Notes under the pieces: model-generated
What the model saw: only the letters and a program-made list of their open reading frames with translations
Told to the model about the DNA's origin: nothing
The model's database searches: none
In this document: positions 5,459 to 62,559 of the stretch, in pieces
Layout: the number at the start of each line of letters is the position of its first letter
How positions within the stretch are numbered: position 1 is the first letter of the stretch
Program-made: the position numbers and the translations under genes
NCBI RefSeq assembly: GCF_001636845.1
Contig: NZ_LITT01000011.1
Span: 248,001-312,000 of the forward strand
Reading direction: 5' to 3'
Length of the DNA stretch: 64,000 nucleotides
Origin: Clostridium ljungdahlii
GTDB lineage: Bacteria > Bacillota > Clostridia > Clostridiales > Clostridiaceae

Positions 5459-5539
5459 ATTTACAAAACTGGACATCAAAAGAGAGGATATATAATTTAT
5501 ATTGTGCTAAACTCTTACACAAGGAGAGAGGTGTTAGAA

Positions 5540-6010
5540 GTGAAGTGGCTGAAACAATTAAGTCAGGTAATTGACTATATAGAAAACAATTTGGATGGTG
5601 TTATTTCATATGATGAAGCTGCAAAAATTGCCTGCTGCTCAACTTACTATTTTCAAAGGATTTTTTCCTATGTTACAGGTATTACCTTGTCTGAGTATAT
5701 ACGACGCAGGCGTATGACAAAAGCAGCTTTTGAATTGGAAACAACTAATAAAAAAGTAATGGATATAGGCTTAAAGTATGGCTATAAATCACCAACAGCC
5801 TTTAATCGAGCATTTCAAAGTGTTCATGGTGTTTCTCCAATTGCTGCACGGGCGCAAGGAACTACACTAAATACTTATCCACCTATCAGTTTTTCAATTT
5901 CGGTTATAGGAGGTGAAAATATGCGCTACAGAATTGAAACAAAAGAGACAATTAGAATTGTAGGAGTTAGAACAGCGCTGCAAGAAGACATGGAGTGGTT
6001 AACAGTATAA
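5540..6010 (+). CDS. AraC-family regulator, C-terminally truncated
   Basis: 156 residues with two AraC helix-turn-helix units: DEAAKIACCSTYYFQRIF (first) and GYKSPTAFNRAFQSVHG (second), followed by about 30 residues (RYRIETKETIRIVGVRT) that begin a GyrI-like effector domain, then a stop. Family members with this N-terminus usually run to about 290 residues, so most of the effector domain is missing. The GTG at 5540 is chosen because the family begins at the (V/E)KWLKQLSQ sequence and AAGGAGAG lies upstream; a longer frame starts at 5504. It may still bind DNA without ligand control, or be a decaying gene. Confidence 0.75.
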   Translation: MKWLKQLSQVIDYIENNLDGVISYDEAAKIACCSTYYFQRIFSYVTGITLSEYIRRRRMTKAAFELETTNKKVMDIGLKYGYKSPTAFNRAFQSVHGVSPIAARAQGTTLNTYPPISFSISVIGGENMRYRIETKETIRIVGVRTALQEDMEWLTV

Positions 6011-6856: not shown

Positions 6857-6897
6857 ATTTTAAAATATCTCTTGAATGTATAGTCGATATACACCTT

Positions 6898-6946
6898 AAA
6901 CTATTTTTATAAAGGTTGTAAATTATAAAAATAGTTTTCTTTTTTA
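6898..6946 (+). terminator. Terminator between the merR and ubiD genes
   Basis: Perfect 15-bp inverted repeat AAACTATTTTTATAA / TTATAAAAATAGTTT followed by TCTTTTTT. It lies 14 bp before the UbiD start and overlaps the place where a ribosome site is expected, so it could also be an attenuator. Confidence 0.75.
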
Positions 6947-6959
6947 GGGGGGATCTTTA

Positions 6960-8459
6960 ATGGATATAGAAAATAAAAAACAAAAGGTAACAGATTTACG
7001 TTCTGCTATAGAATTGTTAAAGTCGGTTCCGGGTCAGCTAATTGAAACTGATGAACCTGTAGAACCACTTGCTGAACTATGTGGAGTTTATCGTCATGTT
7101 GGTGCTGGTGGAACAGTAATGCGTCCAACACAAACTGGACCTGCAATGATTTTTAATAAGGTGAAAGGTCATAAGGATGCAAAAGTGATTATTGGAGTTT
7201 TAGCTAGTAGGGAAAGAGTTGGCTTACTGCTTGATGCAAAACCAGAACGTTTGGGTTTCTTTTTAAATGAGGCAGTTACTCACCCAATTCAACCTGTAAC
7301 AATTCCACAAGATAAGGCAGTTTGCCAAGAGGTTGTACATTATGCAGATGAGCCGGGCTTTGATATAAGAAAATTAGTTCCTGCACCAACTAATACAGAA
7401 GAAGATGCAGGACCATATATCACACTAGGTATGTGCTATGCATCTGATCCAGAAAATGGAGAGTCAGATGTTACAATACATCGTTTATGTTTGCAAAGTA
7501 AAGATGAAATTTCTATGTACTTTGTACCAGGAGCACGTCATTTAGGCGTTTTTCGTGAAAAAGCAGAAAAGGCTGGCAAACCATTACCAATTTCTATTAG
7601 TATAGGAGTAGATCCTGCCATTGAAATTGCGACATGTTTTGAACCACCAACAACACCACTTGGATACAATGAATTAAGTGCAGCAGGAGCTATTAGAAAC
7701 AATGCTGTTGAATTAGTTCAATGTTTGACAATTGGTGAAAAAGCTATTGCAAATGCTGAATATGTTATAGAAGGAGAATTACTTCCTGGAATACGTGTGA
7801 AGGAAGATCAAAATACAAACACAGGGAAAGCTATGCCGGAATTTCCAGGTTACACAGGGCCAGCTAATCCTGAAGTACCAGTAATTAAAGTAAAAGCTGT
7901 TACTCATCGCCGTAATCCAATTATGCAAACCTGTATTGGACCAAGTGAGGAACATGTTAACATGGCGGGTATTCCAACGGAAGCAAGTATAATCCAAATG
8001 GTGAATAAGGCTATGCCAGGTAAATTATTAAATGTTTACGCTCATTCATCAGGTGGTGGTAAATATATGGCTGTTTTACAATTCAAAAAAAGTATACCAA
8101 GTGATGAAGGACGTCAAAGACAAGCTGCCTTATTGGCATTCTCAGCATTTTCTGAACTTAAACATGTAATTTTAGTTGATGAAGATGTAGATCTATTCGA
8201 TAGTAATGATGTATTATGGGCTCTAAATACACGTTATCAAGGTGATGTTGATACAATATTTATTCCTGGTGTACGTTGTCATCCTTTAGATCCTTCACAA
8301 AATCCTAGTTATAATCCATTACTCAAGGACAAAGGAATTTCTTGCAAGGTAATTTTTGACTGTACAGTGCCATTTCGCTTAAAAGAACGTTTTAAGAGAT
8401 CAAAGTTTAAGGACGTAGATCCTGCTCGTTTTGCACCAGAATTATTTAAAACAAAATAA
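6960..8459 (+). CDS. UbiD-family phenolic acid decarboxylase (LpdC/BsdC-like)
   Basis: 499 residues, the normal length for the catalytic UbiD subunit that uses prenylated FMN to decarboxylate hydroxybenzoic acids (gallate, protocatechuate or 4-hydroxybenzoate). Visible features include the prFMN/metal region TIHRLCLQSKDEISMYF (about 175-192), the conserved glutamate segment VIEGELLPG (about 272) and KEDQNTNTGKAMPEFPGYTG (about 281-300), which matches the gallate-decarboxylase (LpdC) subgroup as I remember it. Followed by the flavin prenyltransferase and an LpdD-like chaperone, forming a complete decarboxylase operon. The ribosome site is GGGGGG at 6947-6952. Substrate assignment within the hydroxybenzoates is inference. 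Confidence 0.9.
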   Translation: MDIENKKQKVTDLRSAIELLKSVPGQLIETDEPVEPLAELCGVYRHVGAGGTVMRPTQTGPAMIFNKVKGHKDAKVIIGVLASRERVGLLLDAKPERLGFFLNEAVTHPIQPVTIPQDKAVCQEVVHYADEPGFDIRKLVPAPTNTEEDAGPYITLGMCYASDPENGESDVTIHRLCLQSKDEISMYFVPGARHLGVFREKAEKAGKPLPISISIGVDPAIEIATCFEPPTTPLGYNELSAAGAIRNNAVELVQCLTIGEKAIANAEYVIEGELLPGIRVKEDQNTNTGKAMPEFPGYTGPANPEVPVIKVKAVTHRRNPIMQTCIGPSEEHVNMAGIPTEASIIQMVNKAMPGKLLNVYAHSSGGGKYMAVLQFKKSIPSDEGRQRQAALLAFSAFSELKHVILVDEDVDLFDSNDVLWALNTRYQGDVDTIFIPGVRCHPLDPSQNPSYNPLLKDKGISCKVIFDCTVPFRLKERFKRSKFKDVDPARFAPELFKTK

Positions 8460-11906: not shown

Positions 11907-12785
11907 TTAATTAGAACTTACGCATTTATCTTTTGCTAATACAATTGTACAAATTAGTATAAGTGAACTTCCAACCAATATTGCAAATGACATTTGCTCA
12001 TTAAGGAACAACACACCTAAAAATACACTAACTATAGGTTCGAAAGTTCCTAGTATGGATGAAGATGATACTCCTATTAGTTCTATAGCTTTTAGAAGTA
12101 AAATTATTGACAATATAGTTGAAACTACAGAAATCCCTAAATAGCAAACTACAATTTTAATATTAAAGTTTAAATCTATAGATTTGTTAAACAGCCCACA
12201 TAAAGCTGTACCTATTGTTGAACCTAGACAAAGATACATAGTAGTAACCCTATTATCTAAAGACCGGATGGATTTTAAATTAAGGGCGATTAGTGTGAGC
12301 CCGTAGGAAAAACCTGAAAATAGAGCTAAGCAAATTCCTAAAATGTTTATAGTATTATTTTTAAATCCAACTAATGTGTAAATACCGGCTGCAGCAAGTA
12401 ATAAGGATATAATTTTTTTAGTACTCATTTTATCTTTATAAAATATAAAGCCTGCTATGCAAACTACAACTGGATATATAAAATGTAAAGTAGTTGCAAG
12501 GCCCCCACCTAAATAATTATAAGATATAAATAAAGCTTGAGTTGTTATAGTATATCCAGTAATACCAATGGATATAAGTAACAACACCTGTCCCCTTTTT
12601 AAGTTAATATTAATGTGGCTGAAGTTTAAGTATAAAAATAATATTAATGTTGAAATTAAAAATCTAAATAATAGTACGGTGGTTGGGTTAGATCCATTGA
12701 AATATGCAATTCTAGCCAAAATAGGCATAATCCCAAATGCTGTTGATGATAAAAGTGCATAAGCTATTCCTTTGTAATTATTCAA
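11907..12785 (-). CDS. EamA/DMT-family transporter
   Basis: 292 residues with about ten hydrophobic segments in two EamA repeats (about 1-140 and 150-290), the drug/metabolite transporter fold of inner-membrane exporters for amino acids or other metabolites. The first helix has the usual ALLSSTAFGIMPILARIAY and the end of the second repeat SILGTFEPIVSVFLGVLFLNEQ carries the family's P-x-E region. Start after AAAGGAGG. Substrate cannot be read. Confidence 0.88.
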   Translation of the reverse strand: MNNYKGIAYALLSSTAFGIMPILARIAYFNGSNPTTVLLFRFLISTLILFLYLNFSHININLKRGQVLLLISIGITGYTITTQALFISYNYLGGGLATTLHFIYPVVVCIAGFIFYKDKMSTKKIISLLLAAAGIYTLVGFKNNTINILGICLALFSGFSYGLTLIALNLKSIRSLDNRVTTMYLCLGSTIGTALCGLFNKSIDLNFNIKIVVCYLGISVVSTILSIILLLKAIELIGVSSSSILGTFEPIVSVFLGVLFLNEQMSFAILVGSSLILICTIVLAKDKCVSSN

Positions 12786-12859
12786 AATTTGTCCTCCTTT
12801 TGGATGTCAATAAAAAACCATACATATTATAGCATAAATTTAAAATAGTTATAACAGAA

Positions 12860-13105
12860 ATAATATATTTGACTCATTTATTACAACAGTTTTTTCATCT
12901 TTAATACCAAAAACTTTCACTGGATAAATTGTTTGACATTTTCTATATCCAATACATTCATCATAGTGCACTTCTACATTATGATCTTTTGCACAATATC
13001 TGTGCTTTTACATATTCAGGCAATAAATTATTAACGAAGTAAACTGCTCTTATAACAGGAACACCATGGCTTGATAAGGCAAATTTAGGCGTTTAAAGCC
13101 ATATA
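12860..13105 (-). pseudogene. Degraded iron-sulfur (ferredoxin-like) protein remnant
   Basis: On the minus strand three short frame-shifted pieces read in order as DMIYGFK, then TPKFALSSHGVPVIRAVYF..LLPEYVKAQ, then HNVEVHYDECIGYRKCQT followed by IYPVKVFGIKDEKTVVINES. The last piece is a ferredoxin cluster motif (CIGCxxC...CP) with two Cys replaced by Tyr. Frameshifts and stops separate the pieces, and no ribosome site is seen. This is the best explanation of the otherwise empty 540 bp between the DMT and permease genes. The parent family was not identified. Confidence 0.5.
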
Positions 13106-13190
13106 TCATGTCACATTTCTGTAAGCCTTGGAGATGGAAGTATACACATCGCAATAACATAGTAGATGGCAAAATGTGAAAGTTATAGAA

Positions 13191-13231
13191 TTTTGATAAA
13201 TTAAAAAAAATTATGACAAATTAAAAAAAGC
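13191..13231. repeat. Tandem 20-bp direct repeat in permease promoter region
   Basis: TTTTGATAAATTAAAAAAAA and TTATGACAAATTAAAAAAAG lie back to back upstream of the permease gene. A regulator site or a simple A-tract repeat are both possible. Confidence 0.4.
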
Positions 13232-13329
13232 ATAAAACTATGATAAAATATTGTTTGCAGAATAATAAATAGTTATTAGTAAAAAAGGACTAATCCATTA
13301 GGAGACATTTTTGAAGGGGGATATTTCAA

Positions 13330-14730
13330 GTGGAAGAAAAAGAATTAACACGTGGCCTAAAAGCTCGTCATATTGAATTGATTGCTTTAGGTGGTACAAT
13401 TGGTGTAGGCTTGTTTATGGGATCAGCTAGTACGATCAAATGGGCCGGACCATCGGTACTGTTGGCTTATGGAGTAGCCGGCATTGCCATGTATATAGTT
13501 ATGAGAATTATGGGAGAAATGCTGTATCTTGAACCATTGACGGGTTCTTTTGCAAATTATGCAAATAAATATATATGTCCTTGGGCTGGATATATGACAG
13601 CATGGTGTTATTGGTTTATGTGGATAGCTGTAGGTATGTCGGAAGTTACGGCCCTAGGCATTTATATGCATTATTGGTTTCCAGCTTTACCAGCCTGGAT
13701 TCCGGCTTTAATCGGTGTGGCCATTCTTGCTGCTGCTAATCTGACTTCAGTTAAGTTTTACGGTGAATTTGAGTTTTGGTTTTCCTTAATTAAGATTGTC
13801 ACGATTGTAGCTATGCTTATAATCGGATTTGGATTGATTTTCTTTGGTTTCGGTAACCACGGTCAAGCTATTGGGTTAGCAAACCTTACAGCAAACGGAG
13901 GTTTCTTTGCCGGCGGCTGGAAAGGTTGGTTATTTGCCTTATGCTTGGTAACGGCATCTTATCAGGGTGTAGAACTTATCGGCATCACAGCAGGAGAAGC
14001 ACAGGATCCAAAAAACACATTAAGAAAAGCAACGAAAAATATCATTTGGCGTATATTGATTTTTTATATTGGTGCTATATTTGTAATCGTAACTATTTAT
14101 CCATGGAATAAAATCAGTGCTCTTGGCAGTCCATTCGTTTTGACTTTTGCTAAGATTGGGATTTCCGCTGCTGCTGGAATCGTCAATTTTGTAGTACTGA
14201 CAGCAGCAATGTCTGGCTGCAACAGCGGAATTTATAGCTGCGGTCGTATGCTTTATACCTTGTCAAAAAATGGACAAGCTCCTAAATTTCTTGGCAAAGT
14301 AACTAAAGATGGTGTACCAGCAAATGCTATTAAAGCAACTTTAGCTTGTTTGCTCGCCTGCGTGGCTTTAAATTATATCTGTCCAAATTCTAAATTATTT
14401 GTTTATATCTATAGTGCCAGTGTTCTTCCGGGCATGGTTCCATGGATTGTTTTGTGCATTAGTCAAATAAAATTTCGAAAAGAACATGCAGCCGAAATGG
14501 AAGGGCATCCTTTTAAATCAAAGCTTTTCCCATATGCCAACTATATTGTAGTAGGGTATCTTTTCTTAGTTTTAATTGGCATGTGCTTTAACTCCGATAC
14601 TCAGATGTCCTTACTTGTTGGTGCGGTGTTCTGCGTCATCGTTACTATCGGCTATTTTGCTTTTGGCATCAACAAGCGTGCTGCTCTGAAAGTAGAAAAA
14701 TTTAAAGATGAAGAATTAGGAACCAAATAA
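13330..14730 (+). CDS. APC-superfamily amino acid permease (AAT family)
   Basis: 466 residues with 12 predicted membrane helices. The N-terminus [20 protein letters not shown] followed by [19 protein letters not shown] is the AAT-family signature shared by GabP, ProY, LysP and others; these are proton symporters of amino acids in the inner membrane. Starts at GTG after GGGGG. By eye its codons are richer in G and C than flanking genes, so recent transfer is possible. A specific substrate is not readable. Followed by a clean terminator. Confidence 0.9.
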
Positions 14731-15016: not shown

Positions 15017-16927
15017 ATGAGCCAAACTGTACTAGAAAAAACAGAAGGGCGAGTTAGCTATCATGATTCTGTAGAGGAAATGCTTAAAAGAATCAGGGAA
15101 GATGGTATGTCAAATGTATTTGACAGATGGTCCTCTCAAGAAAAAATTAGATGTAAGTTTTGCCTAGAAGGATTGAGCTGTCAATTGTGTTCTCAAGGTC
15201 CCTGCAGAATTAATCTTAAAGGAGAACAGAAAAAAGGTGTCTGTGGAATTGGTCCAGATGCTATGGCAATGCGAAATATGTTACTTAAAAACATAATGGG
15301 AGCCGGTACATACAGCCACCATGCATATGAAGCTTTTAGAACATTAAGAGAAACTGGAGAAGGCAAGACTCCATTTACAATTAAAGATGTGGATAAACTT
15401 AAATGGATGTGCCAGAAAGTTGGAATTAATACAAGCGGAGATACTAATAAAATGGCAGTGGATCTGGCAAATTTTTTGGAAGCTGAAATGGGTAAAGATG
15501 TAGAGGAACCCAGTGTTATGGTAGATGTGTTTTCACCAAGAAAGAGAAAAAAAGTTTGGAAAGATCTTGGAATTTATCCTTCAGGAGTAGTTCACGAAGA
15601 GCAAAATGCAGTAGCAAGTTGCTTAACAAATGTTGATGGAGATTATGTATCACTAGCTAAAAAAGCGCTGCGGTTAGGTTTGTCAACTATTTATACAGCA
15701 CAAATAGGACTTGAAATGGTACAGGATATACTTTTTGGCACGCCTAAACCCCATGAGGTAAATGTGGACTTAGGAATTATGGATCCAGAGTATGTAAATA
15801 TTGTATTTAATGGACATCAACCTTGGGCTGGTGCTGCTACCCTTCAAAAGGCAAAGATACAGCAGATACAGGAAAGAGCAAAGGCAGTTGGTGCAAAAGG
15901 GCTTAGAATAGTTGGATCAATTGAAACAGGGCAGGAATTATTACAAAGATTTGAAGTAGATGATGTATTTGTAGGCTTAATGGGAGATTGGCTATCTATA
16001 GAACCACTTCTTGCTACAGGTACAGTTGATGTTCTTGCAATGGAAGAAAATTGCTCCCCACCTGCAATAGATCATTATGCTGAAAAGTATCAGGTAACTT
16101 TAGTAGGTGTAAGTACTATTATAGGTATTCCGGGATTAAATCATATGATTCCATATAATCCTGAAAAAGTGGGTGAAATGGCTGACAAATTGATTGATTT
16201 GGCCATTGAAAACTTTAAAAAGAGAAAGGATAACATTACACCAAAAGTTCCTAAAATAACACAGAAGGCAATAGCAGGGTTTTCTACTGAAGCAGTTTTA
16301 GAAGCTTTAGGAAATAAGCTTGATCCACTTGTTGATGTCATTAAAGCAGGAAAGATTAAGGGAATTGTGGCTTTGGCAAATTGTTCAACTCTAAGAAATG
16401 GTCCTCAAGATTGGAATACAGTTAACCTGGTAAAGGAATTGATTAAAAAGGATATTTTAGTTGTAGCCGGTGGGTGCGGCAATCATGCTCTTGAAGTAGC
16501 AGGACTGTGTAATCTAGATGCAATAAGCATGGCTGGCCAAGGATTAAAAGAAGTATGTAATATGCTCAAGATTCCTCCAGTTCTAAGTTTTGGAACTTGT
16601 ACAGATACGGGAAGAATATCCATGCTTGTTACAGAACTTGCTAATCACCTTGATGTAGATATACCAGATCTTCCTATTGCAGTAACGGCCCCTGAGTGGA
16701 TGGAACAAAAAGCTACCATAGATGGTCTATTTGCAGTAGCCTATGGTGCATATACACACTTATCTCCAACACCATTTTTAACAGGTGCAGAACAACTTGT
16801 AAAGCTTCTTACTGAGGATGTAGAGAGTTTAACAGGGGGTAAAGTTGCATTAGGAGATAATCCAAAAGAGGCAGCTGATAATATTGAAGCACATATATTA
16901 AGCAAAAGAAAGGGTTTGGGGTTATAA
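15017..16927 (+). CDS. cooS: Ni-dependent carbon monoxide dehydrogenase catalytic subunit, variant C-cluster
   Basis: 636 residues, full CooS length. Cluster-binding cysteines at the N-terminus are C46 and C49 (CX2C, D-cluster at the dimer interface) and C55, C58, C63, C76 (B-cluster). The CX2C spacing is the type associated with a [2Fe-2S] D-cluster in Desulfovibrio vulgaris CODH, in contrast to CX7C in Carboxydothermus CODH-II. For the C-cluster, H267 (NGHQPW), C346, C456, C487 and C528 are present and the acid-base Lys is K565 (EWMEQKA). The expected ICCTGNE segment reads SIETGQE at 301-307, so the ligand equivalent to Cys295 is absent. Activity as a CO oxidoreductase is therefore uncertain. 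No CooF ferredoxin or hydrogenase gene is adjacent. Start after AGGAGGAG. Confidence 0.92.
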   Translation: MSQTVLEKTEGRVSYHDSVEEMLKRIREDGMSNVFDRWSSQEKIRCKFCLEGLSCQLCSQGPCRINLKGEQKKGVCGIGPDAMAMRNMLLKNIMGAGTYSHHAYEAFRTLRETGEGKTPFTIKDVDKLKWMCQKVGINTSGDTNKMAVDLANFLEAEMGKDVEEPSVMVDVFSPRKRKKVWKDLGIYPSGVVHEEQNAVASCLTNVDGDYVSLAKKALRLGLSTIYTAQIGLEMVQDILFGTPKPHEVNVDLGIMDPEYVNIVFNGHQPWAGAATLQKAKIQQIQERAKAVGAKGLRIVGSIETGQELLQRFEVDDVFVGLMGDWLSIEPLLATGTVDVLAMEENCSPPAIDHYAEKYQVTLVGVSTIIGIPGLNHMIPYNPEKVGEMADKLIDLAIENFKKRKDNITPKVPKITQKAIAGFSTEAVLEALGNKLDPLVDVIKAGKIKGIVALANCSTLRNGPQDWNTVNLVKELIKKDILVVAGGCGNHALEVAGLCNLDAISMAGQGLKEVCNMLKIPPVLSFGTCTDTGRISMLVTELANHLDVDIPDLPIAVTAPEWMEQKATIDGLFAVAYGAYTHLSPTPFLTGAEQLVKLLTEDVESLTGGKVALGDNPKEAADNIEAHILSKRKGLGL

Positions 16928-16929
16928 GG

Positions 16930-17096
16930 CATTAGGCATTTTCAAAGAAATAACTAGTCAGTATGCTAGCCTATTTTTTATCATACTGCGTCGGTAGAAC
17001 CCTTAGATAGGATTCACTATCTGCGGAACCTGCCTCCTTGTCTGATAAAAAATATTCGTTGCATCTTTGACTTGTTATTTTCTTTCAAATGCCTTA
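16930..17096 (-). repeat. Repeat family A, copy 2 (inverted relative to copy 1)
   Basis: Directly after the cooS stop. Reads on the minus strand as the 508-670 element with scattered substitutions. The imperfect terminal inverted repeats are kept (TTTTCAAAGAAATAACTAGTC on one side and GACTTGTTATTTTCTTTCAAA on the other). Either a MITE or a structured element that may help end the cooS transcript. Confidence 0.75.
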
Positions 17097-17101
17097 TTAA
17101 A

Positions 17102-17134
17102 TGGACGGCTAAAAATAATAGCCGTCCATTTTAG
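17102..17134 (+). terminator. Terminator downstream of cooS
   Basis: TGGACGGCTA / TAGCCGTCCA stem followed by TTTTAG, downstream of repeat A. Confidence 0.85.
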
Positions 17135-17234
17135 CCCTGAATCTTAGCTTCAGGAACTTAAAAAACAAAAATATGTTTGTGTGTGTATGTATTAAATAGA
17201 AAGGGAGTTCATTTAAGTTTATGAAAATGACTTT

Positions 17235-17720
17235 TTATTGAGCTGTAAATTGAGATATAAAATCATTCTCATTATCCCAAGGTAAAATGTCTCCATCTTC
17301 CCGAAGATAATTTAAAATTTCCCATACTCCTTTTTTTGTATAAGAACTTATGCGAAAAATTGTTTTACATCCAGCAAGTTTTAACCATTCCTCTGCCCGA
17401 TCTGGATTAGCATTAGGTCGGTCTATTTGTGTTACTATACCTATAACTTCACGGTTTACAAGAGGTCTGATATTGGGGGGATATATGGAATAAGGTTCTA
17501 TAGCACTAAGCAATAGACCTACTACATCTGCTTCATAAGAATATATAGCAAGAGCACTTGCTAAAGATCTATTTTCTGCATATTCCCCTGGGGTGTCAAT
17601 AATTACATCGAAATTATTAATATATTGGGTTTTATGGTAAGAGATTTCTTGCCCTCTTAAAGTCTGGGTTAAAGTAGTTTTTCCACATTCGCTCCTGCCA
17701 AACAAAATTAATTTTTTCAT
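17235..17720 (-). CDS. eutP: EutP/PduV-type small P-loop NTPase
   Basis: 161 residues. Walker A is GRSECGKTTL at residues 8-17, switch DTPGEY near 43-48 and the guanine/adenine specificity-like TQIDRPN near 98-104. EutP and PduV are Ras-like proteins linked to ethanolamine or propanediol microcompartments, where EutP was described as an acetate kinase; role here is inferred. It follows eutS by 10 bp. No signature enzymes (ammonia lyase, diol dehydratase) or other shell genes are present in this window, so the pair is an orphan. Confidence 0.88.
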   Translation of the reverse strand: MKKLILFGRSECGKTTLTQTLRGQEISYHKTQYINNFDVIIDTPGEYAENRSLASALAIYSYEADVVGLLLSAIEPYSIYPPNIRPLVNREVIGIVTQIDRPNANPDRAEEWLKLAGCKTIFRISSYTKKGVWEILNYLREDGDILPWDNENDFISQFTAQ

Positions 17721-17730
17721 GTATGATCAC

Positions 17731-18108
17731 CTACGTTCTTGTCATTTCACATGTTGTAAAGCCGAGAAATTCCTTACAATAGTCAATAATCGATTTTACA
17801 GCAGACTCGACTTCAGAAATTCCGCCTGTTATAATTAAGGTACCACTAAATCTGTCTACAAATCCTAAATCTAGGTTGCCAGTTTTAGTAGCTATATCTG
17901 CCGCAATAATTGCAGTTTCGCTAGGAGTCATGGTCATGATTCCAATAGCAGCTTTTCCATAATCAATATTAGGATTTAATCCTAATTTTTTATATATAAT
18001 ATTGTCGGGGCCAGCAATTATATGTGCAAGGGTAATTTGTTTACCTGGAACAGTTTCTTGTATAATTCTCATTTTACCTTCATGCTCTATCATATTTTGT
18101 AAATCCAT
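17731..18108 (-). CDS. eutS: EutS/PduU-type bacterial microcompartment shell protein
   Basis: 125 residues with a single, circularly permuted BMC domain: the N-terminal hairpin IIQETVPGKQITLAHIIAG is typical of EutS/PduU hexamers, which carry a small beta barrel over the pore. The core AAIGIMTMTPSETAIIAADI and GTLIITGGISEVESAV follow. The family is about 110-116 residues; the extra dozen lie at the N-terminus. Start follows AAGGAGG. First gene of a two-gene operon with eutP. Confidence 0.9.
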   Translation of the reverse strand: MDLQNMIEHEGKMRIIQETVPGKQITLAHIIAGPDNIIYKKLGLNPNIDYGKAAIGIMTMTPSETAIIAADIATKTGNLDLGFVDRFSGTLIITGGISEVESAVKSIIDYCKEFLGFTTCEMTRT

Positions 18109-54421: not shown

Positions 54422-54547
54422 TCAATTATGGGTTCTATTTATTTTTTCTCCAATACTCATTAATTTATCCTTTACCGCTATCTTATTTTTCCATCTTTCA
54501 GGAATGACGTCATATCCATAATAGGTACCTGCAAGTCCCCCTGTCAC
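54422..54547 (-). pseudogene. C-terminal fragment of a split ADP-ribosylglycohydrolase gene
   Basis: On the minus strand the frame reads VTGGLAGTYYGYDVIPERW, then about 20 more residues to a TGA at 54422-54424. This is the C-terminus of an ADP-ribosylglycohydrolase; its N-terminal part lies at 62168-62559, interrupted just where the conserved GDADTVAAV-TGGLAG stretch should be continuous. The intervening 7.6 kb is the recombinase element. Confidence 0.8.
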
Positions 54548-54683
54548 GTTATTGTTATAATTTTTGTTATAGAAAACAGATAAAGCAGTATAAACAGTAG
54601 TGTATGTTCTAATTATATAATTTTAATTCTACAATAGTTATAGAATTCGTTAAAAATATAAAATTATAAGAATCATTTTAATG

Positions 54684-54726
54684 TTATTCACAATTTTATC
54701 CACAGCTTTTCAACAAGTTATCAACA
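54684..54726 (+). repeat. Phased array of four DnaA-box-like 9-mers
   Basis: TTATTCACA, TTATCCACA, TTTTCAACA and TTATCAACA in the same orientation at 54684, 54696, 54707 and 54718, i.e. every 11-12 bp. TTATCCACA is the perfect DnaA box. It lies inside the element about 140 bp from its left end. Confidence 0.6.
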
Positions 54727-54856
54727 TTATAACTATCAAGATATTTATAAACAACATCATTAAAAACCTATCTAATCATTTTTTAAATGGTGCTGATAGT
54801 TATTTATATTTTATATAATGACGTTTTATAAGAATCTTACATACTAATATTAATCT

Positions 54857-55375
54857 TTATAGTGGTTGCAAAGTCATAACATTTACTATGTGTGTTTTTT
54901 CTGCAAAATCCATAGTAACTTCTTTAATTTTTGTATATCCTAAAGCAGACCAAAAGTTAATTCCTTTAGTATTTTCTTCAATTACACCTATTCTAAATGA
55001 CTTTGCTCCTAAGTTAATTGCCCATTCAACTAATGCTTCATGTATAATTTTTCCCAGTCCATTTCCCCTTTCTTGTGGTTCAATAAGCATTAATCCCAGC
55101 ATCCATTCTCCAACAGTTGGAAAATCTCTTACAATATCAATTATCCCCACTAATTCATTATCAAATTTGTATATCCCTAAAACAAATTTATCTTCATAAT
55201 TTTTATTTGTAGGTAGAGCATTAAATATTTCGTCTATTTCTTCTTTAGAAGGTAATATACCAGCATGTAGTATATAATAATCTGAACATTTTTCACATAG
55301 TTCATCAACAATCTTATGATTATCTACAGAAATGAGCTTAATCTTATATCCATTGATTAAATTAATACTTTTCAT
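54857..55375 (-). CDS. GNAT-family N-acetyltransferase (element cargo)
   Basis: 172 residues. The acetyl-CoA loop EPQERGNGLGKIIHEALVEW is at about 105-124, with the preceding strand GEWMLGLMLI and the following FRIGVIEENTKGINFWSALGY, a complete GNAT core. The acceptor (antibiotic, amine or protein) is not readable. It lies inside the recombinase element, so it is the apparent passenger gene. ATG 55375 follows GGGGGAA. Confidence 0.85.
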   Translation of the reverse strand: MKSINLINGYKIKLISVDNHKIVDELCEKCSDYYILHAGILPSKEEIDEIFNALPTNKNYEDKFVLGIYKFDNELVGIIDIVRDFPTVGEWMLGLMLIEPQERGNGLGKIIHEALVEWAINLGAKSFRIGVIEENTKGINFWSALGYTKIKEVTMDFAEKTHIVNVMTLQPL

Positions 55376-55718
55376 AATATATTCCCCCAAATATGATACA
55401 TACTCAATTAAAACTACGTCATATCTTACAACTGTGAACTAAACACCTGCAAAATAACTATATCATACCGCCCTCATATAGTATAACGACATCTCTTCTC
55501 TTTTACTGAGTAAGTATTTAGTTTTTTACTTACAGTATAGACATCCGAAAGTTGCATTTTAAAATTGCTTTTTACACTTTTTGTATTTATTAACCTTATT
55601 TTAAAACTTTTAGTCAGTTTTCAACAATATGCTTTGACAGAATCTAATCAAACAAATCACTTAAAGATATAAACAACGTTTGTTCAGACTGCATCGGGTT
55701 TTTGACTATAACTTCTTT
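55376..55718. other. Spacer between acetyltransferase and element gene D
   Basis: No gene. A hairpin GTAAGTA / TACTTAC around 55511-55536 followed by nothing T-rich on the minus strand. Promoter of the acetyltransferase gene is expected here. Confidence 0.3.
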
Positions 55719-56456
55719 CTATAAATCATTCTTTAATCTGCTTCTTCTTTTCTTCTTTACTTCTTCAGTATTATTGATACTGATTATATTATTTGAAGCT
55801 TCTTCGGAAGATTTTGAAGCAAAATCGTTGATATTCAAAACCTTATTTAATCTGGATTTCTTTTTATCAAACATATTCAATAGTTCCTCATAAACAATTG
55901 AATCTTTGGAGTTAGTCAAATTCATAACATTTTCAAGAGAATTATGTGGAATAGCACTATTGTAAAATAGGGTTATAAGACCATTTTCAAAGGTGTCTAT
56001 TCTCTTATTCAGTAATTCATTTTTCTTTTTAAGCTTGGCATTTTCTTGTTCTAAAATCTTGATTTTGCTTTTATCTCTGTTGAATACTTTAATCAATCTC
56101 TTGACTAATACATCTGGTTTTTTATAAAAATCATTGACCAATGTGATTATATCTTGCATATCAGGTGTATATTCTTCTCCAACAACTTGAACATTGGAGC
56201 TATTCTTAACTTCGTCTATTCTTGTTCTACCATAATAGTATTCACCATTGTATTCACCGTACCAAAAATCATAGCCATACAACTTAAAAAGCTGTCCATT
56301 ACTTCTCCTATATTTATCGTTACCAGCTATTTTTTTATTGAATACAAATACTGAGTTGTAAGTAAGCTTACTCTTTATGCCACCAAGTTCTTTTAATTTC
56401 AAATCTACAATTTCTTTTACTTCTTCTATATCGTATTCTCGTCTTGCTTTAGGCAT
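55719..56456 (-). CDS. Element gene D: coiled-coil accessory protein
   Basis: 245 residues. N-terminal basic region (PKARREYDIEEVKEIVDLKL), an aromatic-rich middle (LYGYDFWYGEYNGEYYYGR) and a coiled coil at about 130-160 (KIKILEQENAKLKKKNELLN), ending in a Lys/Arg tail (KKKRRSRLK). It occupies the place of TnpC in Tn554-type elements, which is also a small coiled-coil protein, but similarity beyond that is not evident. 12 bp after recombinase C, so same operon. Confidence 0.65.
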   Translation of the reverse strand: MPKARREYDIEEVKEIVDLKLKELGGIKSKLTYNSVFVFNKKIAGNDKYRRSNGQLFKLYGYDFWYGEYNGEYYYGRTRIDEVKNSSNVQVVGEEYTPDMQDIITLVNDFYKKPDVLVKRLIKVFNRDKSKIKILEQENAKLKKKNELLNKRIDTFENGLITLFYNSAIPHNSLENVMNLTNSKDSIVYEELLNMFDKKKSRLNKVLNINDFASKSSEEASNNIISINNTEEVKKKRRSRLKNDL

Positions 56457-56468
56457 AATATCCCATCC

Positions 56469-57971
56469 TTACTCTTCTATTTTTTTAACCTCTTTTGGAG
56501 GCACTAAATCCAATAATACTTTTTTCAAGTCTAATAAATTATGAGTATCTCTTCTTATGTCCATTGTTAAGGTTTTGAATTCCCTGTCTTCATCAACATT
56601 TGACCTTAATACCCCATCTAAATCTACTGGGTTCATCTGATTTATAATTTCATTTAAACATCCTTCTTCAACAGCCAATTTTTTCATAAGTGGAGAAATA
56701 CATTTTTCTTTAATATATTTTCTCATAAGGTCATAGTTATCTTCGGTTGGAGAACACCACCATTTACTACACTTAAAACAAAACTCTTCATTTTCACACA
56801 ACATACCATTACTTTTAATATCTACTGTGCAGTAACCAATATCATCATCGGCTTTCCTACATTGCTCTAAAGGTTTAAAGCATTCTACAGGTTTTGAGAA
56901 AATAATTTCTTTTATACTTTTGTTGGAAAAATCAACACCCAATCTCCTTGCACTAATAAAATTAACTATCTCACTATCTACATAATAAGAAACCTTACTT
57001 TGATAAGAGTCTTGGGAGAATACTCTTCTGTGACCACCTATAATCGCTATTTCAACAGGAGTAAGCCCTTGTAACATCAAAGATGTAAATGCAAAATGTC
57101 TGGTATCATGTAGGTTCACACAGCATTCTATTGAATTATCTTTATAATATCCCTTAATAATGTGCTTATAAAAGCTTCTAAGCATAGAATCTAAAGTTAT
57201 AATTGTAAAATATTCAGGGTTACTCTTTAAGTTTTTAGAGAACTCATTGTTAACCATCTTCTTGTCCCCAAGAAATGAATACTTATTCTCATCTAAGTTT
57301 ATCAAGTATTTTCTAAGCTCAAACGTTGCCTTATAAGAAAATAGAGTTTGAGAATTACCATATCCATTTGTTAAATTTTTATAGTTATCTATCAAATCGT
57401 ATATGTTCCTTGTGATTTCAAGTTTATCCAATATAAGTAGATAAGTTCGTTTCACTGCATTTTTTACAACATTTGAATGCTTAATTCTGTTTACTTTTAA
57501 ATAAAACCTATCACCATCTTCTATCAAACAATCTCTTTCCATCTTTGCTGTAATTTCAGTAGGTCTAATGAGTATAACATTACTTATTTTCCACCATAAC
57601 AAGATGGGCATATAATATGTCTTTAATTCTTGAAGAATTGCTCTGTCATAAAAAAACGTATTAACATAATAACCAAATGTTAGAGCATCTTTATTACTTG
57701 GTAAATCCCTAACATTACTATTAACTTTTAAATTCTTTTGTAAAGATTCCAACCCATTCCAATAGATATTAATAGTATCAGGATTGATTTTAAATCCAAT
57801 ATCTTCTCTGTAATTTATATAGGATTTAATGGTGTCGATTGCTTTGTAAACAGTGCTGTCATCAACAGTGGTAGTATCTTCTCTACATTTCATGAATTCC
57901 ATATTATTACCTTTATTTTCTTTTAAAAAATCATCACTAAAATTATTAGTTGCAATTAAAAAATTTAACAA
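56469..57971 (-). CDS. Element gene C, main part: tyrosine recombinase
   Basis: 500 codons following an in-frame UGA. Catalytic features: Arg in ILIRPTEIT (about 137-145), box II HDTRHFAFTSLM (about 288-299), GGHRRVFSQDSY and candidate nucleophile Tyr in KVSYYVDSE (about 324-332). The C-terminus is Cys-rich (CRKADDDIGYC, CENEEFCFKCSKWWC). The first 40 residues continue smoothly from the preceding 122-codon frame, so the native protein is about 622 residues. TTG at 57971 or ATG about 70 bases downstream could start a shorter product. Confidence 0.75.
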   Translation of the reverse strand: MLNFLIATNNFSDDFLKENKGNNMEFMKCREDTTTVDDSTVYKAIDTIKSYINYREDIGFKINPDTINIYWNGLESLQKNLKVNSNVRDLPSNKDALTFGYYVNTFFYDRAILQELKTYYMPILLWWKISNVILIRPTEITAKMERDCLIEDGDRFYLKVNRIKHSNVVKNAVKRTYLLILDKLEITRNIYDLIDNYKNLTNGYGNSQTLFSYKATFELRKYLINLDENKYSFLGDKKMVNNEFSKNLKSNPEYFTIITLDSMLRSFYKHIIKGYYKDNSIECCVNLHDTRHFAFTSLMLQGLTPVEIAIIGGHRRVFSQDSYQSKVSYYVDSEIVNFISARRLGVDFSNKSIKEIIFSKPVECFKPLEQCRKADDDIGYCTVDIKSNGMLCENEEFCFKCSKWWCSPTEDNYDLMRKYIKEKCISPLMKKLAVEEGCLNEIINQMNPVDLDGVLRSNVDEDREFKTLTMDIRRDTHNLLDLKKVLLDLVPPKEVKKIEE

Positions 57972-58340
57972 TCAGTTATAATAACGCTGTATTTGTTTAG
58001 GTCCGTATCCTTCGAGAAAACATTCAGCTAACCAACATTTTACAATTAGCAAATCATGTTCTTGCAAATTCTTAAATTTAAGACTATATAAATCTCTAAA
58101 ATCTATATACACATTGATTATTGTATTATCATCTTCCACGACCCATAAATTACTTTTAAATGTACCCTCAGAATAACCTTTTTTAAATGTGCCTTCAAGC
58201 AAAAATCCTTCTTTATTAAAGTCTTCGGTTACACCTTTAACAAAATCTTCAAGTGAAAATTTTGCTTCTGATATTAATTCTACATTGATTTTTTCCAATA
58301 CTACTTGATACTTCCATATACATTTCCCTTGAATTACCAT
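57972..58340 (-). CDS. Element gene C, N-terminal part before an in-frame UGA
   Basis: 122 codons ending ...GYGPKQIQRYYN then UGA, and the very next codon in the same frame opens the 500-codon recombinase frame (LLNFLIATNNFSDDFLKE). The junction LAECFLEGYGPKQIQRYYN-x-LLNFL reads like the helical core-binding domain of a tyrosine recombinase. No ribosome site is clear before the ATG 58340. Either a nonsense mutation has killed the gene or the UGA is read through. Confidence 0.6.
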   Translation of the reverse strand: MVIQGKCIWKYQVVLEKINVELISEAKFSLEDFVKGVTEDFNKEGFLLEGTFKKGYSEGTFKSNLWVVEDDNTIINVYIDFRDLYSLKFKNLQEHDLLIVKCWLAECFLEGYGPKQIQRYYN

Positions 58341-58395
58341 GCTAAATTATTAACAAGATAGTCAATAAATGAAATATATAAATTAATTTCACCCA

Positions 58396-60207
58396 TTAAT
58401 AGTTTAGCTTTGTTATCTTATATTCCTTTATATCACTTATAATAGCACTACAGAGCGTAGTTAGTGCATATATACATGGTATACTGTATTGACAGCCTAA
58501 ACACCTTTTTAAGTCACGTCTTTGGCAACCTTTCTTGGACATTAAACATTGAACATCTCGTTCTCTTGATGGCAAATTATCAGTAAACATGTCAATCAAA
58601 AACTGTTCACACTCTTCTAAGCTACTTTCTTCTATCATTCTCATAATCATAGCTCTTTCATGGTTGACTGTATTTAAAAAGCCTATTGTACTTTGTACTT
58701 TAAACACATCATTGAATGCAGTATTTACACGAATTACTTGTTCAGTCATTTCTTCAAAAGATAGTTCTTTTCCCTGTACTTTTTGAACCAATAAGCTTGG
58801 TATGTATCCAAATTCGCCCCTTTTAAACAATTGTTTTGTTAATCCTTCTATCTTTTTTAGGTTAAAATCCACATAAAACAACGGAGAGTTTTTATCCATA
58901 TGATTTCTTAATTGTTGAACTAATTTCAACGCATTATCGTCTCCTGACATATTGCTCAAATGATATATGAAGGTCATTACACTTTTGTTCATTTTTTTTG
59001 ACGAAAAAGTAAAACCCTCACAATCATCCATATTTTTGAAAAAATTCTTTAATTGGCTATCTGTCGGCTCATTGTATTTAGTTTTAAAATCTAACAATGG
59101 CACATATTCTGTCTTAGAATCAAGTACACCTTTTGATACCAAAAATGTTTCTATGATTAGTATAGCAGTTGCAATAGCGGGAGCTAATATATCAGATGAA
59201 AAGAAGTGACCTTTAATTTGCGTCTTTGATATTTTGAACTCCTGGTTTATCACTCTTTCTATAAGTCTTCTTGATTGTATCAATGTAAGTTCGTTATCTT
59301 GAAACCATTCAAGTCCAGTTATTTCAAATTCAGAAAGCAAGTCGTATACATGCAGTCTTGGAAAATCAGTAACATCTCCATGTCTCCAGGCGTTATTTAA
59401 GTGGAGCATTAAATATAACCATACTGAGGGATATCTTATATCCTTATTCTTTAGCATTTTAGCTATAGAATTTTTAGTATGCGATTTAACATCTGACAAA
59501 AATTTGAATATTTTTGTATACGACTCAAAATCATAAATTTCCTTTTTCTGTTTTCTATTTTCTTGGTTTCTTTTATTAAAATCCTTGATTTCTTTTAGCC
59601 TAATTTTATTAACTTCATCTAACCTAAATCCTTTGTCATGCGATTTAGACTTTCTTAGCTGTAGTCTCACATCTTCTTCCACTTTTACGAGGAAACTGTA
59701 TAACCATCGTTTTGCGTCTGAACCTGCCCAGTTGTATACTAAAGCTAATTCCTTGGGACTCAAGGAGTAAATTTCAGAAACATCGAACTCTTTCAAAGCC
59801 TTGTTAATTATATCAATAGATATTGACATATAGCGAGTTATGCGATTTTCTGCTGTTTTTAAGGATTGTGTTTGCCTTAACTTCGATTTTACAAATTCAT
59901 ACCATTTTTCTTTGGTATATGTTGATGAATTAAATTTGGTTAATTCATCTGTACTTAAATCCATCCTTTTTTCAAATGTATCAAAATAGGTTACACCTCC
60001 TGTATCTAACACCTTTTTTCTCTTAATAAAGGGTTCTACTCTTTCTAAAGCTTCGATTCTTTTGTAGACATTCTGTTTTCTTCCGTTAGGGCAAAGAGTC
60101 TTTACAATAGCATATGCAGGAATTTCAAAAGTTTCTAAGCCATCAAAATAACGGGAACTGCTATCTATAGCAGGGGGGGTAAATCTTTTTAATTTCAACT
60201 GTACCAA
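58396..60207 (-). CDS. Element gene B, main part: large recombinase-like protein
   Basis: 603 codons from TTG 60207 (GGAGAG upstream). Helix-turn-helix-like N-terminus (CPNGRKQNVYKRIEALERVE), then a long helical region. An Arg box NNAWRHGDVTDFP (about 272-284) resembles recombinase box I, but the HxxR box is not evident (KKMNKSVMTFIYHLS), and a later QLRNHMDKNSPLFYV holds His and Tyr. It ends in a Cys cluster (CLMSKKGCQRRDLKRCLGCQ). Perhaps a recombinase partner lacking a full active site, like the second protein of some trio elements. Confidence 0.65.
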   Translation of the reverse strand: MVQLKLKRFTPPAIDSSSRYFDGLETFEIPAYAIVKTLCPNGRKQNVYKRIEALERVEPFIKRKKVLDTGGVTYFDTFEKRMDLSTDELTKFNSSTYTKEKWYEFVKSKLRQTQSLKTAENRITRYMSISIDIINKALKEFDVSEIYSLSPKELALVYNWAGSDAKRWLYSFLVKVEEDVRLQLRKSKSHDKGFRLDEVNKIRLKEIKDFNKRNQENRKQKKEIYDFESYTKIFKFLSDVKSHTKNSIAKMLKNKDIRYPSVWLYLMLHLNNAWRHGDVTDFPRLHVYDLLSEFEITGLEWFQDNELTLIQSRRLIERVINQEFKISKTQIKGHFFSSDILAPAIATAILIIETFLVSKGVLDSKTEYVPLLDFKTKYNEPTDSQLKNFFKNMDDCEGFTFSSKKMNKSVMTFIYHLSNMSGDDNALKLVQQLRNHMDKNSPLFYVDFNLKKIEGLTKQLFKRGEFGYIPSLLVQKVQGKELSFEEMTEQVIRVNTAFNDVFKVQSTIGFLNTVNHERAMIMRMIEESSLEECEQFLIDMFTDNLPSRERDVQCLMSKKGCQRRDLKRCLGCQYSIPCIYALTTLCSAIISDIKEYKITKLNY

Positions 60208-60628
60208 TATGCTCTCTCCAAAACTTATTTTGCTTTGCCTTTATCTCTTCAATTTGGTCTTTTTTAAAATATTTTGTATAGCCAAATCCTATCATCTTGT
60301 AAACCTCTAATTTAAACTCTTTAATAAGCCTCATAATATAATCAGTATCATTAGTGTCATGAGTGACTGTGTCTAAATACTCTACAACTTGCTCTTGAGT
60401 TCTACAATTAGCTAAAACAAAGTCATTATGTGCCTTTGCTTCATAGACTTCTTTTTTATTGTACATATAATGTGCTTTTTTATATGGCAAAGGATAACCA
60501 TGCGGAATTTTGACTTTTTTTAAATACCTGAGTTTTATGTCTCTTGGCTTTAAAAAGTCTAAGACCTCCTTGCATGTCATATGATTATCGAAAAATTCCT
60601 TCTGTTCCTTATCTGCTTCATTAAGCAT
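60161..60628 (-). CDS. Element gene B, N-terminal part: HTH-repeat protein
   Basis: 155 codons overlapping the start of the 603-codon frame by 47 bp. It contains repeated helix-turn-helix-like units: TCKEVLDFLKPRDIKLRYLK with YMYNKKEVYEAK, and YKMIGFGYTKYFKKDQIEEI. The same kind of unit continues at the start of the next frame. The overlap contains a C7 run (60173-60179 on this strand), an obvious place for a frameshift joining the two into one protein of about 745 residues. Start after AAGGAGG, 14 bp behind gene A. Confidence 0.6.
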   Translation of the reverse strand: MLNEADKEQKEFFDNHMTCKEVLDFLKPRDIKLRYLKKVKIPHGYPLPYKKAHYMYNKKEVYEAKAHNDFVLANCRTQEQVVEYLDTVTHDTNDTDYIMRLIKEFKLEVYKMIGFGYTKYFKKDQIEEIKAKQNKFWREHIGTVEIKKIYPPCYR

Positions 60629-60642
60629 AAGTAACCTCCTTT

Positions 60643-61971
60643 TTACGTTTCAATAGAAATCCTACTTAACTCCTCTAATCTTGATTGTATAGACTCAAGA
60701 ACAGCTATCCTGTCTATATACTCATAAGCAGAATTCAAGGATTTATCTCCTCTTAAATTTGCAAGAATTTGAGCTGATGGCTTTCCTGTTGCATCATTAC
60801 AGAGTCCTGTTTTAATTAAGTAGTTTGTATAAATATGCCTACCAATATGACTTCCCCATTTATAATTTTCTTTATAATCTTTTGCTAATGCTGGTTTTCT
60901 TTCAGCTAACTTTTGAAGGAAGCACTCTTTTAAAAATGCAAATCTGGTATGATAAACTTCACCCGCCATTGCATTACCATTCAAATCTACGAACAATGCT
61001 CTGGTATTGTTTCTGGGTCTATCTTTTAAATAGTTCAAATGCTTTTCAAGCAAATTAAATAACTGCCCATTAAAATCGAACACTGGTTGGTCTTTTCTTG
61101 GTTTTTTAACCTGAGATTTATCTGTTTTTATGCCTCTATTTTTAAATAACCAACCTTGTCTGTCTTGAATGTCTAAAAGTATCTTGTCTCCTTTTTTATC
61201 AACCTTATAAGAACTTAAAACTTGATTAACAACTTCTCCTGCTCTCAATCCTCCCATGAACTGCATTGCTACCCCAAAAGCTATATCTGGCGTTTCTTCT
61301 TCTGCAACCTCCAAAAGAAGCTCCCAATCAGATTTTCTCATGTCTGCCAACTTAGGTCTTGCACCAATGCTTTTGCTATCCTTAGATGGATAAGTAATAT
61401 CTACACCACAATCATCAAAAGGGTTTATAAGGACTTTCTTTCCTTTGCTTGTTACTTTAGACCCACTTTTATATCCTGGCATAGTATATTTTTCACCAAC
61501 CTCAAATTCTACCTGCATATATTCGTTTGTTATACCTTTCTTTCTTAAAAAATCATAAAAGTATATCAGTTCATTTTGCTTCCTCATAACTGTTTTGTAG
61601 TTATTGCCAAGCACTATAGTACCTTTTACTTTTCTTGGTTTTTCATTACTCAGGTAGTGTAAAAACTTTGCACCATGCAAAAAATTAAGACCGTATAGTC
61701 CCTCTGACTTTAAATTGTCGAAAACTCTATCTTCACCAAGCTCAACTTGATGCAATATGTAGTTCATAAAGTCACATATAAGATAACCTACACTTTCTTG
61801 TGTATTTATAGCTAAATTTGAATAATAGGCATATATATAGTGAGTTAAGGAACTTGGCATCCAAACCCCTGTATCCACATCTTTCTCCATAATCATAACT
61901 GTATTTTTATTTTCTTCGCTATAGGTATTAAATAGTTTTGCATTTACTTGTTGCGTACTGTATCTTATCAT
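60643..61971 (-). CDS. Element gene A: tyrosine recombinase
   Basis: 442 residues, intact. The N-terminal core-binding region is about 45-200; the catalytic domain has box I Arg in MQFMGGLRAGEVVNQ (about 239-253), box II HIGRHIYTNYL (about 385-395) and the nucleophile Tyr in SAYEYIDR (about 424-431). In place of the usual LGH before the Tyr it has NLRGDKSLN. First gene of the element operon; AGGAGG lies 9 bp before ATG. It would cut and rejoin the element ends. Confidence 0.85.
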   Translation of the reverse strand: MIRYSTQQVNAKLFNTYSEENKNTVMIMEKDVDTGVWMPSSLTHYIYAYYSNLAINTQESVGYLICDFMNYILHQVELGEDRVFDNLKSEGLYGLNFLHGAKFLHYLSNEKPRKVKGTIVLGNNYKTVMRKQNELIYFYDFLRKKGITNEYMQVEFEVGEKYTMPGYKSGSKVTSKGKKVLINPFDDCGVDITYPSKDSKSIGARPKLADMRKSDWELLLEVAEEETPDIAFGVAMQFMGGLRAGEVVNQVLSSYKVDKKGDKILLDIQDRQGWLFKNRGIKTDKSQVKKPRKDQPVFDFNGQLFNLLEKHLNYLKDRPRNNTRALFVDLNGNAMAGEVYHTRFAFLKECFLQKLAERKPALAKDYKENYKWGSHIGRHIYTNYLIKTGLCNDATGKPSAQILANLRGDKSLNSAYEYIDRIAVLESIQSRLEELSRISIET

Positions 61972-62167
61972 CTAATAAGACCTCCTACTTATCCCTCTCA
62001 TATTCTTTTCCTATATCACTTATTAATAACAATTTGTTCTCTATATTATATCATATATTCTATAAAATAAAAGAATACCTATAGAATTATATTCCATAGA
62101 TATATCAATGCTTTATCTATTATTTATAGTTTATATTTATTAATTCTATATATTAACCACAATAAGC
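61972..62167. promoter_or_regulatory. Right end and promoter region of the recombinase element
   Basis: About 195 bp of very AT-rich DNA with the element border (TTAACCACAATAAG at 62153-62166) and an imperfect palindrome CTATAGAATTATATTCCATAG at about 62082-62102, a likely operator or recombinase site before gene A. Confidence 0.5.
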
Positions 62168-62559
62168 AACTGCAGCCACGGTATCAGCATCTCCACATAA
62201 ATTTGCAGCCTCACATATTGTATCTTCTAAATTTGAATTGTTCATGAAACACCAAAATGCACACCTTAAAGTGTCAACTACATATCCTGAAGGTACAAGC
62301 TCTTCTTTTTTCATATTCATTTAGATTCAATAGGACATTCAGGATTCTCAAGTATTCCTCCTGCTACACATAAAGTCATCATGGTATCATCTGTAACCTG
62401 TCCAGGCTTCAACTTCCAATGACCTCTGCCTATAATATCTTTTAGATACCCATATGTTTTGCGTCCTTCTTCTTGAGATAAAAATTCCAAAGTTGCCCCT
62501 AATGCATCTCCACAGGCTACTCCAAATAATCCTCCCAAAAGTTTATTTAATCTTTCCAT
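62168..62559 (-). pseudogene. N-terminal fragment of a split and internally deleted ADP-ribosylglycohydrolase gene
   Basis: Codons from 62559 read LLGGLFGVACGDALGATLEF and GQVTDDTMMTLCVAGGIL, the N-terminal metal-binding region of DraG-type hydrolases, and stop after ECPIESK at 62317. Just past that, another frame gives KKEELVPSGYVVDTLRCAFW and CEAANLCGDADTVAAV, the late part of the same protein, so about 130 codons are missing in between. The frame is then cut by the mobile element at about 62168. The final 40 codons are at 54422-54547. Doubly broken gene; it lies 10 bp after the chemotaxis receptor. Confidence 0.85.

Follow-up and report, generated by a model that had tools for sequence, protein, structure and literature searches.

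A probable Tn554/SE/GInt-like site-specific transposon that carries an additional recombinase-like gene and lies in an ADP-ribosylglycohydrolase gene of Clostridium ljungdahlii

Introduction

Tn554, SEs and GInts are mobile elements that carry resistance and fitness genes. Tn554 is a three-gene set, and radC serves as its target site. In this study we describe a 7,617-bp insert that splits an ADP-ribosylglycohydrolase (DRAG) gene of Clostridium ljungdahlii and carries four consecutive genes, termed A, B, C and D. It lies in a 64,000-nucleotide stretch of contig NZ_LITT01000011.1, the whole of which is called the window below. We consider the insert, with a probability of roughly 0.8, to be a site-specific transposon of the Tn554/SE/GInt kind, in which an extra recombinase-like gene, B, stands between a tnpA-like and a tnpB-like gene. 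The group of elements with this quartet is little described and is found in Gram-positive bacteria.

Several systems resemble the quartet in one respect or another. Tn552-II is a Tn554-type element with a 7-bp spacer and an 'att brought in' rule, as set out in the accessible part of PMC12486829. SEs carry intA, tfp, intB and srap, and a 6-bp footprint rule is described for them in the available sections of PMC10214605, which also name the mechanism of one-strand, 6-bp-copying transposition and the relations among these groups as open questions. In the accessible text of Idola et al., tfp-srap blocks are found only in Gammaproteobacteria. GInts possess four essential genes (ginA, ginB, ginC and ginD), three for integrase-like proteins and one for a small HLH protein; gin operons occur in Firmicutes, and in the third protein, GinC, the first of the catalytic arginines is missing (Bardaji et al. 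2017, PMC5385486, in excerpt). The recombinases of RIT elements (ritA, ritB, ritC) measure 315-410 aa each (PMC10214605, in excerpt). Tyroviruses were considered as relatives and rejected: according to the excerpt of PMC9703825, they are phages of 160-170 kb in which the three recombinase genes lie dispersed. A literature search among open-licence papers found no later paper on quartets from Bacillota.

Results

The two halves of the DRAG gene flank the insert. The 5' part (62172..62559, minus strand) encodes an N-terminal region matching PF03747 (E 1e-18), and the 3' part (54422..54542, minus strand) was identified by direct reading and by flank alignment. Among 13 same-genus genomes compared, G142 (locus L030) and G136 (L031) carry the host gene closest to that of the window, unsplit, the open frames spanning 300 and 304 aa; a third genome, G128, has a DRAG gene at 68% identity. 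The initial annotation, made from the window alone, had proposed that one ADP-ribosylglycohydrolase gene is split by a recombinase-carried mobile element, as is borne out here. Both window flanks align to these two loci at 93-97%, and the alignments meet at a single point. Comparison with a strain lacking the insert, suggested earlier as a check, thereby fixed the element at 54549..62165 (minus strand, 7,617 bp), with its C end at 62165 and its C' end at 54549; the ends first given, 54546..62167, were nearly right.

Read on the minus strand, GCTGC-AGTTGC-AGGGGG is the sequence of the empty site. At the left junction GCTGC-AGTTGC is followed by TTATTGTGGTTAAT of the insert, and at the right junction the terminal CAATAA of the insert is followed by CGTGAC-AGGGGG. 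A 6-bp spacer therefore stands on each side of the insert. The left one, AGTTGC (attL, 62166..62171, minus strand), has the same six bases as the empty-site core, whereas the right one, CGTGAC (attR footprint, 54543..54548, minus strand), is absent from it. The plain junction of GCAGT(T) to ACAGG proposed at first has to be replaced by these two spacers, of which only the left equals the empty site. The short inverted ends reported with it were confirmed, as TTATTGT matches in 7/7 bases at termini whose position follows independently from the empty site. The left terminal motif C, TTATTGTGGTTAAT, occupies 62152..62165 (minus strand), and the right terminal motif C', TTATTGTTATAATT, lies at 54549..54562 (plus strand), inverted to C with its first 7/7 bases matching. 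The window also has a longer inverted pair in subterminal position, which was rejected because 63/500 shuffles reached it by chance.

Read in frame, CGTGAC would turn A-V-A-G-G of the local gene into A-V-T-G-G, and threonine occupies this site in 2/4 copies of the motif found among 188 family genomes. This fits, and does not prove, an earlier stay of the element in another gene of the same family.

The DRAG gene of the window also has a separate 370-bp internal deletion compared with G142 (between 62322 and 62321), by which its frame is altered too. On account of this deletion, the host gene would have been, or have become, a pseudogene even without the insert. Scanning the window for Rfam families and tRNAs gave no matches, and neither did PADLOC.

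All four genes between the DRAG halves run in one direction, on the minus strand. Gene A (60643..61971) encodes a 442-aa tyrosine recombinase of IntA/TnpA-like type, with R243, K289, H375, R378 and Y418 present in 29/29 aligned rows. PF00589 matches A in 6/18 relatives (E <= 0.001), and the A protein of the window itself had no match. The best PDB profile match for A was Tn1549 Int, at E 0.0016 only, and a PDB sequence search with A alone returned none. Gene C, TnpB/IntB-like, is found in two pieces, an N-terminal one of 122 aa (57972..58340, minus strand), which ends in an in-frame TGA at 57972-57974, and a main one of 500 aa with a Cys cluster (56469..57971, minus strand). Its residues R136, R291, H314, Y323, C381, C392 and C401 are kept in 29/29 rows, and PF00589 matches C in 16/18 relatives. 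C also gave the best integrase-family match of the window (PF00589, E 0.08, below cut-off); a PDB profile search for C gave nothing useful. On their conserved catalytic residues, A and C are assigned as tyrosine recombinases. The rows behind all such residue counts are partly non-independent, as they include near-identical loci (L049, L051 and L052; L015 and L057). None of the window's A-D proteins hit a family above cut-off in Pfam, NCBIfam or PHROGs, in agreement with the earlier suspicion of a poorly described family.

The proteins were then compared by hhalign with SE proteins from six plasmid loci and with one Tn554-type trio, the values being pairwise and the sets small. The trio (L066:6151-9773, G000 contig 47) belongs to the window's own genome, and its genes encode 377, 710 and 126 aa, with a DUF6262 match at E 7e-14. 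A gave 95.1% with TnpA and 95.5% with SE IntA, and C gave 93.7% with the Tn554-type TnpB and 4.7% with SE IntB. B reached 1.4% with SE Tfp and D 8.0% with Srap (5 and 6 reference sequences, respectively; matches this weak leave room for remote homology), and D reached 8.8% with Tn554 TnpC. The initial annotation had held the gene set to be foreign to Tn554. This is true of B, which is an added gene, and not of A and C, which resemble TnpA and TnpB of the trio. By sequence, A and C look Tn554-like and the layout of the quartet looks SE-like.

The shared layout raises the question of whether the element is simply an SE that reached Bacillota, with B as Tfp and D as Srap. In both, the order is a catalytic recombinase, an unusual recombinase-fold protein, a second catalytic recombinase and a small coiled-coil protein; the second protein bears a C-terminal Cys motif, the ends are inverted and the footprint is 6 bp. 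We regard this origin as improbable. The B-Tfp, C-IntB and D-Srap profile matches are non-significant and C is far nearer to Tn554 TnpB. Furthermore, Tfp is said to have no catalytic RHRY residues whereas B keeps R275, K328, H436 and Y445, and the restriction of tfp-srap blocks to Gammaproteobacteria in the text of Idola et al. points the same way.

Gene B of the window comprises an N-terminal piece of 155 aa (60161..60628, minus strand), which matches the N-terminal part of B from locus L019 (E 8e-8), and a main open frame of 603 aa (58396..60207, minus strand) with a recombinase-fold core and a C-terminal Cys cluster. No integrase family matched B, and a PDB profile search gave nothing useful. 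The structural model of B resembles tyrosine recombinases across the core-binding and catalytic domains. R275, K328, R434 and Y445 are present in 30/30 full rows and H436 in 29/30 (the L023 row, which holds the wrong half of a split gene, is excluded), and the H-to-Y spacing is the usual nine residues. Box II is altered, with K405 and R/K408. The initial annotation had described a large second protein with HTH (helix-turn-helix) repeats and a C-terminal Cys cluster. The cluster is conserved across the rows; no repeats could be detected in either B piece of the window, and HTH arrays are clear in B of Paenibacillus and Campylobacter relatives. Counting HTH-like units by regular expression overlooked the most evident arrays, and the count was not used.

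B might instead be a DNA-binding regulator that reuses the recombinase fold, as the phage repressors SroF and MrpR do, and we give this somewhat less than even odds. Both repressors rank within the top 50 structural rows for B, and the altered box II and the HTH arrays of some relatives would suit a regulator. The near-invariant catalytic residues and the usual nine-residue spacing between H and Y argue for a recombinase.

The window copy itself is broken in two places, which the initial annotation missed together with the 370-bp deletion of the host gene. Genes A-D and the acetyltransferase it listed are all present, with B in two frames and C cut by the TGA. B changes frame at a run of seven G (60173..60179, plus strand), where it continues as one open frame in most relatives, and the relatives have no in-frame TGA in C. 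Unless the breaks are sequence errors, neither B nor C can be made in full from the element, which would be stuck; the copy is most likely decayed and now immobile. Errors of sequencing or assembly in an otherwise intact element are an unlikely explanation. The G7 run is error-prone and the assembly is in 65 contigs, but the two lesions are independent and lie in different genes, the stop in C arises from a substitution-type change that leaves homopolymer length as it was, and decay is seen in relatives too (A of L020 has four TAA and A of L017 is split by an IS21). A programmed frameshift in B was rejected, as B is in a single frame in most relatives; in L023 it is also split, at another place.

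Gene D (55719..56456, minus strand) encodes 245 aa with an N-terminal helical domain and a long coiled coil (helix 114-167 in model m51e196858911), and is TnpC/Srap-like by position. A fold search with the model gave no significant PDB match, and D had no match to DUF6262, the domain of TnpC-like proteins. Downstream follows a cargo gene for a GNAT acetyltransferase (54857..55390, minus strand; PF00583, E 3e-11). Near the right end, the DnaA-box-like array of the initial annotation was found again as four TTATNNACA sites in one orientation (54684..54753, plus strand). The whole 64 kb holds 31 such sites against 28.4 expected by chance, and four were reached in 0/2000 mononucleotide shuffles of 54549-55000, in a test chosen after the fact. 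The cluster was rejected as a family feature: there is none in L043 (14492-16366) and no cluster in L046.

The quartet is a conserved operon. The order A-B-C-D recurs in 31/35 loci, or 29/33 distinct loci (two loci were seen via two collections), which confirms the synteny that the initial annotation had asked to be sought in other genomes. The 31 include three with a defect, namely L017 (A split by the IS21), L023 (B in two frames) and L049 (D truncated where the contig stops). Four loci depart from the order: L018, L020, L024 (contig end) and L044, in which C and D are inverted and about 6 kb away. D was partly defined by position in L015-L028, and in 21 named loci it was found independently by the profile built from it.

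As for distribution, A matches 13/194 family genomes (E <= 0.001, window included), and longer stretches were examined for 10 of the 12 others, leaving out the two weakest; four plasmid records match as well. When species genomes were scanned with the B alignment, 21 loci were obtained, of which 20 are assigned by their titles to Bacillota genera and one to Arthrobacter. These three sets, of 10, four and 21 loci, make up the 35 in which gene order was compared. A first scan of genome contigs with A alone and a viral-contig search with A1 yielded nothing useful. Intact quartets occur in Clostridium, Intestinibacter, Bacillus-like genera and Paenibacillus, among them those of Clostridium sp. C2-6-12 (L043) and Intestinibacter bartlettii DSM 16795 (L040). 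The quartet is nevertheless rare, with B strongly present in 2/398 genomes of a random phylum sample (the window, E 4.6e-186, and G485, E 5.9e-52). At E 0.001 the count is 20/398, which was not taken at face value, as the other 18 matched at E 3.9e-6 or weaker and mostly in the N-terminal HTH part.

A second element with empty sites in relatives was found in Clostridium sp. C2-6-12 (L043), with ends at 7970 and 16373. Its left flank matches 51/59 genus genomes, and in the seven loci compared (L073-L079) the sequence past the break resumes in L043 at 16373. Its left end, TTAATGTGATTAAC, resembles that of the window and stands in the same place. Candidate ends for L046 scored no better than chance pairs and were not used.

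Other targets, identified by eye from the flanking frames, are topB, dinB/yolD, rarA, an ATP-dependent ligase, a DUF72 gene and radC. In L025 (1725-3902 and 12143-12760), a truncated topB piece stands upstream of the element and a complete copy downstream; over 172 aa the piece shares 89% identity with the beginning of that copy. The layout is similar in L056 (rarA; 6863-7168, 16521-17825; 49% over 98 aa) and in L027 (dinB; 5297-5743, 12766-13845; 32% over 145 aa). The element would thus seem to bring a new 5' part that rescues the broken target, as PMC12486829 proposes, in the text available, for its tgl gene; alternatively, the downstream copy would be a plain second gene. The window element has no rescue piece. 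A tRNA/tmRNA scan of 8 relatives for an ssrA target gave no matches, so that the position of L042 near smpB does not speak for a tmRNA target.

Some quartets have notable neighbours. On an Enterococcus faecalis plasmid (L015:4845-15428, LR961926.1) predicted vat(A) and vgb(A) genes lie some 2.4 kb away from the quartet, and in Cytobacillus firmus (L017:2968-14949 and L047:8197-17422) a mercury-resistance operon follows it; gene A, split by the IS21-type insertion in L017, is whole in L047. A 5,109-bp circular Campylobacter jejuni 'plasmid' (L018, NZ_CP029055.1) holds A in two frames, B, a short C-like piece and little else, and may be an element circle or a mis-assembly. Two distant elements (L019:2584-4227 and L028:12601-14259) have downstream frames of about 550 aa with similar starts, a shared cargo. 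The copy in L044:7077-20644, with A and B apart from the inverted C and D, is rearranged or composite. Going by titles, a single quartet falls outside Bacillota (L048, NZ_JADHDX010000018.1, Arthrobacter); its neighbour genes look Bacillus-like, and transfer or contamination is possible.

Discussion

The movement of such an element can be pictured as follows. A and C would act on the short inverted ends C and C' that flank a 6-bp spacer. B, with its tyrosine-recombinase fold and, in some relatives, an N-terminal excisionase-type HTH array, and the coiled-coil helper D would be partners in end recognition and strand choice. The two ends would be joined into a circle, taking 6 bp from the left flank, and the circle would enter a conserved motif of a host gene, so that the left end retains the target's own 6 bp and the right end receives those of the donor. 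The circle, the direction and the copy-out step are what we infer here. Circle-borne donor bases at the right end are described for SEs (PMC10214605) and for Tn552-II (PMC12486829), in the accessible parts of both.

Several observations weigh against placing the element in the Tn554/SE/GInt kind or against this use of its ends. Both junctions of L043 carry the same 8 bp, ATATTGTT; donor and host bases are thus inseparable there and a strict 6-bp register is unproven at that locus. A donor gene with the core CGTGAC was found in 0/188 family genomes, the motif itself occurring in only 4/188. The window element is single-copy in its genome, and hence gives no direct sign of recent movement. Profile comparison of B and D with Tfp and Srap of SEs and with Tn554 TnpC gave nothing significant, and a Foldseek search with the B model gave no match at E <= 0.001.

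Could the element be a GInt, that is, a ginABCD island of the Firmicutes type and so known in kind? It is possible, although we rather doubt it. GInts likewise have three integrase-like proteins and a small one, cargo follows the fourth gene in both, and gin operons are known from Firmicutes. However, the protein without the first catalytic arginine is the third in GInts, whereas here all three recombinase-fold proteins keep that residue (R243 of A, R275 of B and R136 of C) and the odd protein is the second. The 10-17-nt direct repeats of GInts are also absent from the window junctions. GInts were compared by description only. RIT elements share three adjacent recombinase genes with the quartet and differ in their 34-bp ends and in having no fourth gene; the coding capacities here are 442, about 740 and about 620 residues, plus D.

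With Tn554 and Tn552-II, an element of the Tn554/SE/GInt kind as proposed here shares two tyrosine recombinases, the second larger and Cys-rich, followed by a small putative helper, as well as target specificity and a short donor spacer brought in at the right end; yolD-like targets, as for Tn552-II, recur near Bacillota quartets (L016). It differs from Tn554 in B, which stands between A and C and has no counterpart there, and in its target, the DRAG gene instead of radC. With SEs it shares the gene order, translationally close genes and the unusual second protein. Apart from A and IntA, the sequences are not significantly alike, B keeps catalytic residues, and Tfp of pAQU1 has no HTH array. 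A strand-biased circle without an empty donor site is a further trait of SEs. A tentative and speculative extension is that B is catalytically competent too, as a third recombinase whose box II bears a lysine like that of type IB topoisomerases, and that some members of the family have it fused to a covalent excisionase-type HTH array. This array would steer which end is cut, and hence strand choice and target, and the Bacillota quartets would form a separate lineage joining Tn554, through A and C, to SEs and GInts. With Tn554-like A and C and an SE-like extra protein, the Bacillota quartet would be a natural intermediate.

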